Assembly (NCBI GenBank): GCA_945860295.1
Contig: CAMAQH010000007.1
Location: forward strand, 103,224-167,223
DNA from: Prosthecobacter debontii
GTDB lineage: Bacteria; Verrucomicrobiota; Verrucomicrobiia; Verrucomicrobiales; Verrucomicrobiaceae
Direction of reading: 5' to 3'
DNA length: 64,000 nucleotides
The translations under genes and the position numbers were made by a program. Position 1 is the first letter of the stretch. Every line of letters starts with the position of its first letter. The notes below the pieces were generated by a model. It did no database searches. It had not been told where the DNA came from and saw only the letters and a list, made by a program, of their open reading frames with translations. This document shows, piece by piece, positions 53,833 to 57,556 of this stretch.

Positions 53833-54636
53833 ATGTGGGACTTTGTCACAGAGCATTGGCGCGATGGCGTGGAGATCATCATCCTCGCCGCGCTGGCTTA
53901 TCATGGTTATCTGTTTTTCCGCGCGACTCGCGGAGCTCGCATCCTCACCGGGCTGCTCGTGCTGCTCTTGAGCCTCGCGCTGATCTCTCAGCTCCTCGAG
54001 CTAGAGGTCATCAACTGGCTTCTCCAGCGCATCTCGGTCTTCCTCGCCGTCGCACTCGTCGTGCTTTTTCAGCCTGAGTTGCGTCGCGTTCTTGCCGAGT
54101 TGGGCAGCCACCGTGTCTTCTCTTTTAACCGACCCGACCCCGAGTCGCTCGATGTTTTGATGGAAGCCATGCAGCAGCTTTCCGCACGTCGCTGCGGCGC
54201 ACTGTTCGCCCTGAAGCGCGGCATTGACCTCAAAGTGTTCGCTGAAACTGGTGTCGAGATCGATGCCGCCATGAGCACCGAACTCATCACCACCATCTTT
54301 CACCCGAAGACCAGTCTGCATGATGGCGGCGTCATCATTGATCAAGGTCGCATCATGGCGGCTGGCTGCGTCTTTCCTGTCAGTCAGAAAGAAGTGCGTG
54401 ACCGCGCCATCGGCCTGCGCCACCGCGCCGCCATGGGTGTGACCGAGGAGACTGATGCCATTGCTCTGATCGTCAGTGAGGAAAGTGGAGCGCTCTCCCT
54501 GGCCTATCGCGGCAAGCTAGAGCACGACTTGGAGCCTGAAGAACTCAGAGATCGACTCAACGAGCTGCTGACCTTTGGCACGCTAAAAACCGAAACCAAC
54601 GAGGAGGAGACGACCCGTGACTTGGGCACATCTTAA
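53833..54636 (+). CDS. cdaA: Diadenylate cyclase CdaA (c-di-AMP synthase)
   Basis: From the ATG at 53833 the protein has 267 residues, near the usual ~270 for CdaA. The frame also contains a TTG at 53782, but that adds a poor N-terminus. Three N-terminal membrane segments (about 12-29, 37-52, 62-80) are followed by the DAC domain with DGG at 164-166 (SLHDGGVII) and RHRAA at 196-200 (GLRHRAAMGV), the ATP-binding and catalytic motifs. It makes c-di-AMP from two ATP at the membrane. The next gene overlaps its end by 20 bp, and glmM follows, the same order as the cdaA-cdaR-glmM operon of Firmicutes. Confidence 0.95.
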   Translation: MWDFVTEHWRDGVEIIILAALAYHGYLFFRATRGARILTGLLVLLLSLALISQLLELEVINWLLQRISVFLAVALVVLFQPELRRVLAELGSHRVFSFNRPDPESLDVLMEAMQQLSARRCGALFALKRGIDLKVFAETGVEIDAAMSTELITTIFHPKTSLHDGGVIIDQGRIMAAGCVFPVSQKEVRDRAIGLRHRAAMGVTEETDAIALIVSEESGALSLAYRGKLEHDLEPEELRDRLNELLTFGTLKTETNEEETTRDLGTS

Positions 54637-54784
54637 AAACCTCATCTGCCGGAACTGGAAGGAAAAGCTGCTCGCCGTCGTGCTTGCCTTTCTCTTTTGG
54701 TACATGATCAAAGCCCAGGCCGCACGCTCCAGCTTGCCCTACGGCTACGGCGGCGACCGAGTCCCTCGGGCGACGCGCCTTTGA
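54617..54784 (+). CDS. Very short YbbR/CdaR-like membrane anchor protein, 55 residues
   Basis: A GTG at 54617 begins a 55-codon frame with a strong Shine-Dalgarno-like GAGGAGGAG at 54601-54609, spaced 7 bases. It reads TWAHLKNLICRN, then WKEKLLAVVLAFLFWYMIKA. This matches the N-terminal cytoplasmic-membrane anchor of YbbR/CdaR (NWxLKxLxLxxAFxLW). No YbbR repeat domain follows; only ~20 residues (SLPYGYGGDRVPRA) come before the stop. It overlaps cdaA and precedes glmM, where cdaR lies in other bacteria. It could be a shortened CdaR still acting on CdaA in the membrane, or the remains of a longer gene. Confidence 0.68.
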   Translation: MTWAHLKNLICRNWKEKLLAVVLAFLFWYMIKAQAARSSLPYGYGGDRVPRATRL

Positions 54785-54787
54785 CAC

Positions 54788-54804
54788 ACCGCACCTCCTG
54801 CGGT
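54788..54804 (+). other. Small perfect hairpin before glmM
   Basis: ACCGCA at 54788-54793 pairs with TGCGGT at 54799-54804 around a five-base loop. No T-run follows, so it is not an intrinsic terminator. It lies 14 bases before the glmM start and might affect translation initiation. This is speculative. Confidence 0.3.
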
Positions 54805-54818
54805 AAAGCGCGCGCTCT

Positions 54819-56183
54819 ATGTCTGAAAAACGCCAGTACTTCGGCACCGACGGCGTCCGCGCCGTAGCCAATCGCCATCCCATGACCCCAGAGTTCGTCC
54901 TGCGACTCGGGCAGGCAGCCGCCGTCGTACTCGGCTGCACAGGTGATGGTGGTGAGCGCCCACGCTGCATCATCGGTCGCGACACGCGTGCCTCAGGCGA
55001 AATGCTTGAATCCGCACTCATTGCTGGGCTGAACTCTGCTGGAGTCGATGTCGTCCTCGTCGGCATGGTGCCCACGCCCGCAGTTGCCATGCTGGCTGCT
55101 CAAACCGGAGCCAATTTTGGTGTCATCGTCAGCGCCTCACACAATCCATTCCAGGATAACGGCATCAAGTTCGTCCACGGCAACGGCCGCAAGCTCAATG
55201 ACAAGACCGAGATCGCCATCGAGAAAATCGTGCTCGGTGAGTGCGCCGAAGCACCGCGTCCTGAGGGCCGTGGCATTGGCCGCGTCAGTCGCATGACGGA
55301 CAGCGTGGATCGCTATGTCGCACACGCCGTCGCCAGCATGGGCGGCGTCCGTCTTGATGGCATGAGAGTCGCGCTCGACAACGCCCATGGCGCATCATCC
55401 TACACCAGCGCCGCCGCATTATCTCAGCTCGGAGCCGACGTGCAGGTCTTCCACAGCGAGCCAGATGGCTTTAATATCAACGAAGCCTGCGGCTGCACTC
55501 ACAGTGAGGAACTCGAGCGCCTCGTCCGCCAATCTCAAGCGCAGGCAGGCATCGCCCATGATGGAGATGCTGACCGCATCGCCCTTTGTGATGAAGAGGC
55601 CATCGCACTGGATGGCGACGAACTCATGGCCATCGCCGCCGAGTCAATGCTGCGCAAAGGCACGCTAAAGCAGAACACACTCGCCGTCACCATCATGAGT
55701 AACTACGGGCTAGACGACCTCGTCTCCCGCCTCGGTGGTCGCGTCATCCGCACCAATGTCGGAGACCGCTATGTGCTAGAAGAAATGCACGCGCGTGGTC
55801 TCAATCTTGGCGGTGAGCAGAGTGGCCACATCATCTTCGGAGATTGGGCCACCACTGGCGACGGACTCATCGCTGGACTGCAAGTGCTCAAGATCATGAA
55901 GGAAACCGGCGAGCCACTCAGCCAGCTCCGCAAGTGCCTGAAAAAGTTCCCTCAAGCCGCGCGCAATCTCCGCGTCCGCTCCAAGCCGCCCACCGCTGAG
56001 CTGATCGACGCACAAAAGATCATCAAAGAGACCGAGAAAAAACTCGGCGACTACGGTCGCGTACTCCTCCGTTACTCCGGCACCGAGTCACTCATCCGAC
56101 TTCTCATTGAAGGGCGCGACGTTGAATACCTCGAAGCTCAGGCTGATAAAATCGCCTCGGCCATTCTCTCGCAGATCGGATAA
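54819..56183 (+). CDS. glmM: Phosphoglucosamine mutase
   Basis: This 454-residue enzyme converts glucosamine-6-phosphate to glucosamine-1-phosphate for UDP-GlcNAc and cell-wall synthesis. The start YFGTDGVRAVANRHPMT is typical. The phosphorylated serine is S107 in VSASHNPFQDNGIKF, the metal loop is HDGDADRIA (GIAHDGDADRIALC), and the sugar/phosphate loops GGEQSGHIIF and LRYSGTESLIRLLIEG are intact. It is 34 bp after the YbbR-like frame. In other bacteria GlmM binds and inhibits CdaA, which fits this gene order. Confidence 0.97.
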   Translation: MSEKRQYFGTDGVRAVANRHPMTPEFVLRLGQAAAVVLGCTGDGGERPRCIIGRDTRASGEMLESALIAGLNSAGVDVVLVGMVPTPAVAMLAAQTGANFGVIVSASHNPFQDNGIKFVHGNGRKLNDKTEIAIEKIVLGECAEAPRPEGRGIGRVSRMTDSVDRYVAHAVASMGGVRLDGMRVALDNAHGASSYTSAAALSQLGADVQVFHSEPDGFNINEACGCTHSEELERLVRQSQAQAGIAHDGDADRIALCDEEAIALDGDELMAIAAESMLRKGTLKQNTLAVTIMSNYGLDDLVSRLGGRVIRTNVGDRYVLEEMHARGLNLGGEQSGHIIFGDWATTGDGLIAGLQVLKIMKETGEPLSQLRKCLKKFPQAARNLRVRSKPPTAELIDAQKIIKETEKKLGDYGRVLLRYSGTESLIRLLIEGRDVEYLEAQADKIASAILSQIG

Positions 56184-56305: not shown

Positions 56306-57556
56306 ATGCATGACAAAAGCACGACAAATCTGGCTCTACACTCCCGGTGTAGGGGTAAACCTTTCGCCGTGGTCAAACAAGGCTCGGCAGCAGTGCCCAT
56401 CTATCGGGGCGATGTTCGCGGATCCCAACGGTTCACGGTGGCTTTCTATCGGGACGGCAGAAGGATGCGACGGACTTTTGGAAGCCTAAATGCAGCCAAG
56501 GAGGAGGCGCGGCTTCTGGCTCTCAACATCCAGCGTGGCATGAGTTCGGACAACGATCTCCGCCCGCAAGACCGCGAGGCGTTCCGAGTTGTGTGCGCCA
56601 TGCTTGAACCCTTTGGGCTGCCTCTGGTTACCGCAGTGGAGGAGTATGTGCAGTGCCGTCGCAAGCTGGGTGAAACGCCCTTGATTACTTCGGTCGATGA
56701 GCACGTCCGCAGGGCCAAAGGATTCACAACAGGGGTGTTGATATCAAGGGTGATCGAGGAATTTCTTGCTGCTAAAAAGCAGGACCGCATGAGCACGCAT
56801 TACCTGAAATCACTCCAGAGCATCCTCAAACAGTTTGGGCAGGCTTTGCCGGGCGAAATCGCCAGAGTGACCACTCAGCAAATTGATGCTTGGTTGCGTT
56901 CGGGAGATTACTCTGCTGTGACGCGCAACAACCGGCTCAAACGGGTTAAACTGCTGTTTGGCTACGCTCGGCAAAGCGGCTACTTGCCGAAACGTGAGCC
57001 GACGGCAGCCGACGAGCTCAAACATCGAAAGCAGGGGGACACTGATGTTGGCATCTTTAAGCCTGAGGAGTTTGAGTTGTTGATGAGAGCTGCTCCGGCT
57101 GCACTCATCCCGGTGCTTGCTATTGGGGCTTTTGCGGGGCTGCGCGCAGCGGAAATTGCCCGCCTAGATTGGAGTGCGGTGGACTTGGGGCGCAGGATCA
57201 TTGAATTGCGAGCCGGGCAGGCCAAGACAGCATCGCGGCGCATCGTGCCCATCAGCGACAATCTCGTGGCGTGGTTGACTCCCTTGGAGCGACAGGGCTT
57301 GGTGGTGCCGGAGAAAATCGTGTTTGTGAAAATCACTAAACTGGCCAAAAGCTTGGGATTGGAGTGGCCGCACAATGCCCTACGTCACTCCTACATCAGT
57401 TATCGGATCGCCGTGGTGCAGAGCGCTGCCCAAGTCGCGCTGGAGGCGGGAAACTCTCCGGCGATCATCTTCAAGCATTACCGCGAATTGGTGACCAAGG
57501 AGGCTGCTGCCCAGTGGTTCGGCATCACGCCTAAAACCTGCACATCCACGCTTTGA
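56306..57556 (+). CDS. Tyrosine recombinase (phage-type integrase)
   Basis: This 416-residue protein has an N-terminal SAM-like core-binding domain (about 150-235, FLAAKKQDRMSTHYLKSL) and a catalytic domain. Active-site residues are R280 (AGLRAAEIARLDW), H356 and R360 (HNALRHSYIS) and the nucleophile Y392 (IIFKHYREL). The usual second His/Trp before the tyrosine is Asn (EAGNSPAII), a conservative variation seen in several families. The N-terminal ~80 residues (VPIYRGDVRGSQRFTVAFY) look like an arm-binding domain. No tRNA is adjacent that could serve as attachment site. A small HTH gene follows 15 bp later. Confidence 0.9.
   Translation: MHDKSTTNLALHSRCRGKPFAVVKQGSAAVPIYRGDVRGSQRFTVAFYRDGRRMRRTFGSLNAAKEEARLLALNIQRGMSSDNDLRPQDREAFRVVCAMLEPFGLPLVTAVEEYVQCRRKLGETPLITSVDEHVRRAKGFTTGVLISRVIEEFLAAKKQDRMSTHYLKSLQSILKQFGQALPGEIARVTTQQIDAWLRSGDYSAVTRNNRLKRVKLLFGYARQSGYLPKREPTAADELKHRKQGDTDVGIFKPEEFELLMRAAPAALIPVLAIGAFAGLRAAEIARLDWSAVDLGRRIIELRAGQAKTASRRIVPISDNLVAWLTPLERQGLVVPEKIVFVKITKLAKSLGLEWPHNALRHSYISYRIAVVQSAAQVALEAGNSPAIIFKHYRELVTKEAAAQWFGITPKTCTSTL

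Follow-up and report, generated by a model that had tools for sequence, protein, structure and literature searches.

A conserved CdaR-like membrane anchor without YbbR domains encoded between cdaA and glmM in Prosthecobacter debontii and its relatives

We analysed a 64,000-nucleotide stretch of the Prosthecobacter debontii genome (contig CAMAQH010000007.1; hereafter the window), in which three genes follow each other closely on the forward strand: cdaA (53833..54636), a short gene of 55 codons (54617..54784) and glmM (54819..56183). The cdaA product, a membrane diadenylate cyclase, consists of the membrane domain PF19293 and the DAC domain PF02457 according to its Pfam matches, and scores 213 bits against the CdaA equivalog model TIGR00159 (cut-off 188.8). 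A profile search found one DAC domain in the whole genome, that of cdaA. The glmM product, a phosphoglucosamine mutase, scores 538.7 bits against the GlmM equivalog model TIGR01455 (cut-off 447.55). Both proteins thus exceed their NCBIfam cut-offs, and CdaA and GlmM are intact, as an earlier note on this DNA had described them. The same note had pointed to a Shine-Dalgarno-like sequence ahead of the short frame, and GAGGAGGAG (54601..54609, +) indeed lies within the 3' end of cdaA, 7 bases upstream of the GTG start codon. The first 20 bases of the short gene still lie in cdaA, and its product of 55 amino acids has a basic N-terminus, a single hydrophobic stretch and a short tail. Residues 6-34, LKNLICRNWKEKLLAVVLAFLFWYMIKAQ (54632..54718, +), make up the conserved anchor core, supported by profile match, hydropathy, charge and dN/dS, and predicted to be a membrane helix with the N-terminus inside. 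The product has no match in Pfam or NCBIfam, and hence no recognisable YbbR domain. Its stop codon is separated from glmM by 34 bases, and therefore no YbbR remnant is hidden in the gap.

The cyclase carries RHR, which together with DGA we take to be the catalytic motifs of CdaA; at the presumed DGA site it has HDGG (residues 163-166, window 54319..54330). HDGG occurs in 64 of 66 loci of the family to which the window belongs (repeat loci included), in 31 of 43 loci of family f2, where the other 12 have HDGA, and in all 11 loci of family f63. Directly behind glmM, 56306..57556 (+) encodes an integrase of the tyrosine type (PF00589, 30.5 bits against a cut-off of 27.1); ARAGORN found no tRNA in the window. 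Elsewhere in the genome there is a 7TM-HD protein (PF07698, 60.7 bits; locus L340, G000:C13:44846-45403), which is of the kind of PgpH and, on that analogy, a candidate for a phosphodiesterase that degrades c-di-AMP. The presence of one DAC domain and this PgpH-like protein makes c-di-AMP turnover plausible in this genome.

The short frame is a real, conserved gene. The earlier note had proposed a comparison of synonymous and non-synonymous change, and this comparison, made on 12 of the 64 family loci, those of the window and of 11 close relatives, reveals purifying selection. Outside the overlap with cdaA the dN/dS of the short gene is 0.119, with 0.063 for the anchor and 0.197 for the tail, against 1.28 and 2.18 for the two wrong frames of the same anchor DNA and 0.044 for cdaA in the same comparison; these ratios are approximate at so high a level of synonymous change (pS about 0.65). 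In the protein database, 15 proteins of 46-57 amino acids match the product with E <= 3.2e-5, one of them (P0015) being alike in the N-terminal part only. A Shine-Dalgarno-like 4-mer precedes the start codon in 49 of 58 separate family frames (a 59th, in L020, was missed by the search pattern and is left out), compared with 761 of 6838 for all ATG and GTG triplets in the same loci. The database matches, the frame-specific selection and the Shine-Dalgarno enrichment indicate that the frame is more than a product of chance. A chance open frame was ruled out by the 15 database matches and by selection being confined to this frame. Annotators may take note that the gene is missed by Pfam and NCBIfam models.

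The short protein is homologous to the N-terminal anchor of full-length CdaR, as judged from a profile comparison. A profile of 27 anchors, compared in hhalign with 15 CdaR-like proteins of 147-405 amino acids, aligns with their first 35 positions (97%, E 1.2e-10; 33 columns, 36% identity). With no PF07949 match, the protein is not filed as a YbbR-domain protein. PF07949 itself occurs in 160 of 288 genomes sampled across the phylum, all matching ones listed being outside the window's class, and in 30 of 286 genomes of a denser class sample, none of them listed in the window's order; no match was reported for the window's genome or for any sampled genome of its order. In loci from 12 of those 30 class genomes (L244-L255), cdaA is followed by a frame of 133-255 amino acids with the anchor and one or two YbbR domains, and then by glmM, in 12 of 12 cases. 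In L142, a more remote CdaR, three stretches match YbbR. The picture suggested by these sequences is one of stepwise loss of YbbR domains, from three to two, one and none. Outside the class, family f33 has bare anchors behind cdaA in four genomes (G150, G237, G300 and G340), with 17-24 residues after the core, alongside members with more: a 364-amino-acid frame in G292 and PF07949 matches in G167 and G320. Because bare anchors and longer or PF07949-bearing forms coexist in this family, the loss probably happened more than once.

These results bear out the reading in the earlier note of a frame that codes for the CdaR anchor without the YbbR repeats: CdaR does occur reduced to its anchor, as a YbbR-less gene conserved beyond the species. 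The note had set two outcomes against this reading, a frameshifted full-length ybbR at this place and a short frame not kept in relatives, and neither was found. A frameshifted full-length ybbR was ruled out by the 34-base gap to glmM and by the lack of any YbbR match in the genome. Among open-licence papers, we found no report of a YbbR-less CdaR.

A search for the short frame among relatives, also proposed earlier, traced it far beyond the species. The window's family was represented by 68 genomes, of which 64 have cdaA, and all 64 (repeat loci L109 and L112 omitted) have the anchor beside it, as 59 separate frames and 5 fusions to CdaA. The window's genome has one anchor in a search with the 27-anchor profile. 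Among the other genomes of the order with a cyclase match, the anchor is present in 81 of 96. By family, these comprise all 43 genomes of f2, all three of f65, the single genome of f64 (311 bases downstream of cdaA), 32 of 38 in f62, where five lack it and one contig ends inside cdaA, and two of 11 in f63. Of the nine f63 genomes from which it is absent, two have just 379 and 876 bases covered downstream of cdaA; further partial DAC matches were seen in two f63 genomes. The 27-anchor profile found no anchor anywhere in 14 draft genomes of the order with cdaA, which are 75-99% complete. In G376 the first cdaA copy lacks an anchor and the second has one.

From other families of the class we picked 21 genomes, nine of which have cdaA with a bare anchor; in one (G109) the anchor lies 744 bases downstream of cdaA. 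In G285, CdaA continues into the anchor and about 108 residues without a Pfam match. Eleven of the 21 have another kind of cyclase only, with no CdaA match at the cyclase locus examined. This different cyclase of other class members joins PTS_EIIA_2, DacZ_P and DAC in one chain (L169:1474-2847, minus strand; L171:511-1917, plus strand), an arrangement that, judging by its domains, would tie c-di-AMP synthesis to the phosphotransferase system. Of 80 named loci, the best 34 include the labels Prosthecobacter, Verrucomicrobium, Akkermansia, Chthoniobacter, Terrimicrobiaceae and Udaeobacter, and 33 of them have a bare anchor (32 separate, one fused), while in the remaining one the contig ends inside cdaA. 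The other 46 divide into 22 with an anchor-like start followed by 109-377 residues, some of these matches being weak (E up to 0.6), and 24 without an anchor match. A diadenylate cyclase domain was detected in 280 of the 288 phylum genomes sampled, in agreement with the suggestion that c-di-AMP signalling is conserved in this phylum. In four class relatives (L264, L269, L278 and L285) the anchor core begins while 113-143 bases of cdaA are still to come, and most of the short gene thus overlaps the cdaA end in a different frame.

Six genomes have the anchor joined in frame to CdaA, of which it makes up the C-terminus: five of the family (G064, G065, G067, G009 and G010) and one of f2 (G162). A counterpart among the named records is the 325-amino-acid protein of Verrucomicrobium sp. 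BvORR106 (L256). On a tree of 97 CdaA proteins with tails removed, which contains one long branch (L113) and one partial sequence (L083), the fused state requires three changes, and well-supported branches force these three; in principle, a single gain with two losses would also account for them. Fusion in itself has a precedent: a CdaA-CdaR fusion has been reported for some streptococci, as described in PMC10243994.

The hydropathy and charge of the anchor fit a single membrane helix with the N-terminus inside. Charge on the N-terminal side exceeds that on the C-terminal side in 115 of 139 frames of the order, is equal in 18 and lower in six. The fused forms, too, require an N-terminus inside, since the anchor there follows the cytoplasmic cyclase domain. 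The tail behind the anchor is short and variable, with a median of 25 residues; in L025, L053, L058 and similar family loci it is long and proline-rich, and would there lie outside the inner membrane. AlphaFold places a helix at residues 284-316 over the fused anchor, a part where the alignment is a single row, with pLDDT 83-85 over residues 291-310 and a whole-model pTM of 0.59. Anchors were tried as additional rows of the fold alignment, but MAFFT aligned them to the wrong end, and the model was for this reason made without them. The matches of the model in Foldseek and VIA-align concern the cyclase domain and hardly cover the membrane parts. Against solved structures, the window peptide gave two matches (E 0.61 and 1.1), taken as chance, and full-length CdaRs gave nothing below E 0.05. 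The accounts in PMC10243994, PMC8573169 and PMC6368335 locate the contact between CdaA and CdaR in the membrane helices. Our covariation analysis of anchor and CdaA (178 pairs, of which 173 are distinct; effective number 75) gave no signal for the membrane part of CdaA, which holds 9 of the top 30 pairs against 9.5 expected, with 40 of 100 shuffles as high.

The third gene of the cluster differs from its Bacillus counterpart at the CdaA contact residues. Bacillus subtilis GlmM is described as binding CdaA through D151, E154 and D195; for Escherichia coli and Pseudomonas aeruginosa it is suggested that arginine in the first of these places hinders binding (PMC8573169). At the corresponding places, read by hand from the alignment, the window GlmM has R158, D161 and Q203, so that one of the three is acidic. 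Among 44 family GlmMs, R or K stands at the first place in 39, D at the second in 37 and E at the third in two. The same places also vary in 18 GlmMs from other named records, and the acidic trio may on these sequences be a trait of few groups. Since the acidic CdaA-binding residues are not kept, control of CdaA by GlmM is doubtful in this organism, and the part of the earlier note that carried this control over from Firmicutes is not supported by R158, D161 and Q203.

The selection on the gene, its homology to the CdaR anchor, its place beside cdaA and the six fusions are direct observations. We infer a topology, a binding and an effect on CdaA as follows. The anchor is predicted to cross the membrane once with its N-terminus inside, is likely to bind the transmembrane helices of CdaA, and would serve the cyclase as a permanent fourth membrane helix that sets its oligomeric state or basal activity, not as a sensor of the cell exterior that can come off. 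Where the two are fused, detachment is not possible. The YbbR domains would then be an add-on that was shed in stages within this class and probably a further time in another part of the phylum. Braking of CdaA by GlmM through the Bacillus-type contact has probably been given up as well. That the YbbR-less CdaR anchor is a standing membrane partner of CdaA is the explanation we consider probable, if with reserve. Two results count against it: covariation did not favour the membrane part of CdaA, and 14 genomes of the order manage with cdaA but no anchor. If the anchor does bind CdaA in the membrane, this would suggest that the core of CdaR is the anchor and not its outer domains. The wider proposition, that the core of CdaR is its membrane helix and that this class runs CdaA with a bare anchor as fourth helix, built into the enzyme about three times, without YbbR and without the known GlmM brake, is offered tentatively, at slightly less than an even chance.

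The anchor might bind CdaA merely to hold or stabilise it, with no influence on activity. The fused forms, not switchable by dissociation, and the near absence of anything outside the membrane except the short variable tail are consistent with such a role, but CdaA has its own N-terminal membrane domain (PF19293), and full-length relatives are reported to alter c-di-AMP levels in Chlamydia (PMC12422730) and Porphyromonas (PMC9259658); we regard this explanation as unlikely. It is very unlikely that some other membrane protein is the partner of the anchor and that operon history alone keeps the anchor next to cdaA: it is fused to CdaA in six genomes and is homologous to CdaR, whose partner is described as CdaA (PMC10243994), even though covariation gave no signal for the membrane part of CdaA, the neighbours change and glmM was not found adjoining the anchor in f2 loci.

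Nor do we give much weight to CdaR disappearing from the class with the anchor as its functionless remnant. The stepwise loss of domains and the absence of the anchor from nine of 11 f63 and five of 38 f62 genomes would suit a decaying gene, yet the anchor dN/dS is 0.063, the anchor is retained across class families, and it has been fused to CdaA instead of decaying, which makes such a relic quite improbable. Least credible is a frame that serves mainly to couple translation of cdaA and glmM, with a peptide of secondary importance: in 122 of 139 frames the cdaA stop codon is not yet complete where the anchor core starts, and the window combines the overlap with cdaA with the 34 bases to glmM, but the amino-acid sequence is under selection, and f2 keeps the frames at loci where cdaA was found without an adjoining glmM.

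Of these readings, we carry forward that of a probable standing membrane partner of CdaA. The YbbR domains have disappeared from the order and from several more families of its class, and probably a further time in other groups, whereas strong selection maintains the anchor. How CdaR acts on CdaA is called unclear in the discussion of PMC8573169; a natural loss of YbbR with the anchor kept opens this question to direct tests, since work on some 50 residues, or on the 325 of a natural fusion, is much simpler than work on the full complex.

The arrangement described here resembles the cdaA-cdaR-glmM cluster of Firmicutes in that the short gene lies between cdaA and glmM and shares a homologous N-terminal anchor with CdaR/YbbR. 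In the Firmicutes CdaR, as presented in PMC10243994, the YbbR domains outside the membrane number three or four, whereas here there are none, and GlmM lacks the acidic contact residues. In the streptococcal fusions of the same source both partners are likewise in one chain; these are described there as large CdaA-CdaR proteins, while here the anchor alone is fused, as in the 325-residue L256. By its description in PMC12422730, the DacA-YbbR pair of Chlamydia is also alike, with a membrane cyclase and a one-helix partner. The chlamydial GlmM is reported there to be without the binding residues, and a DacA-GlmM contact was not detected in the work as described. Chlamydia differs in having a two-gene operon, dacA and ybbR, with the partner annotated as a YbbR protein (PMC12422730). 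The class relatives L244-L255 have the same gene order and the same N-terminal anchor, but, unlike the locus in the window, retain one or two YbbR domains behind it.
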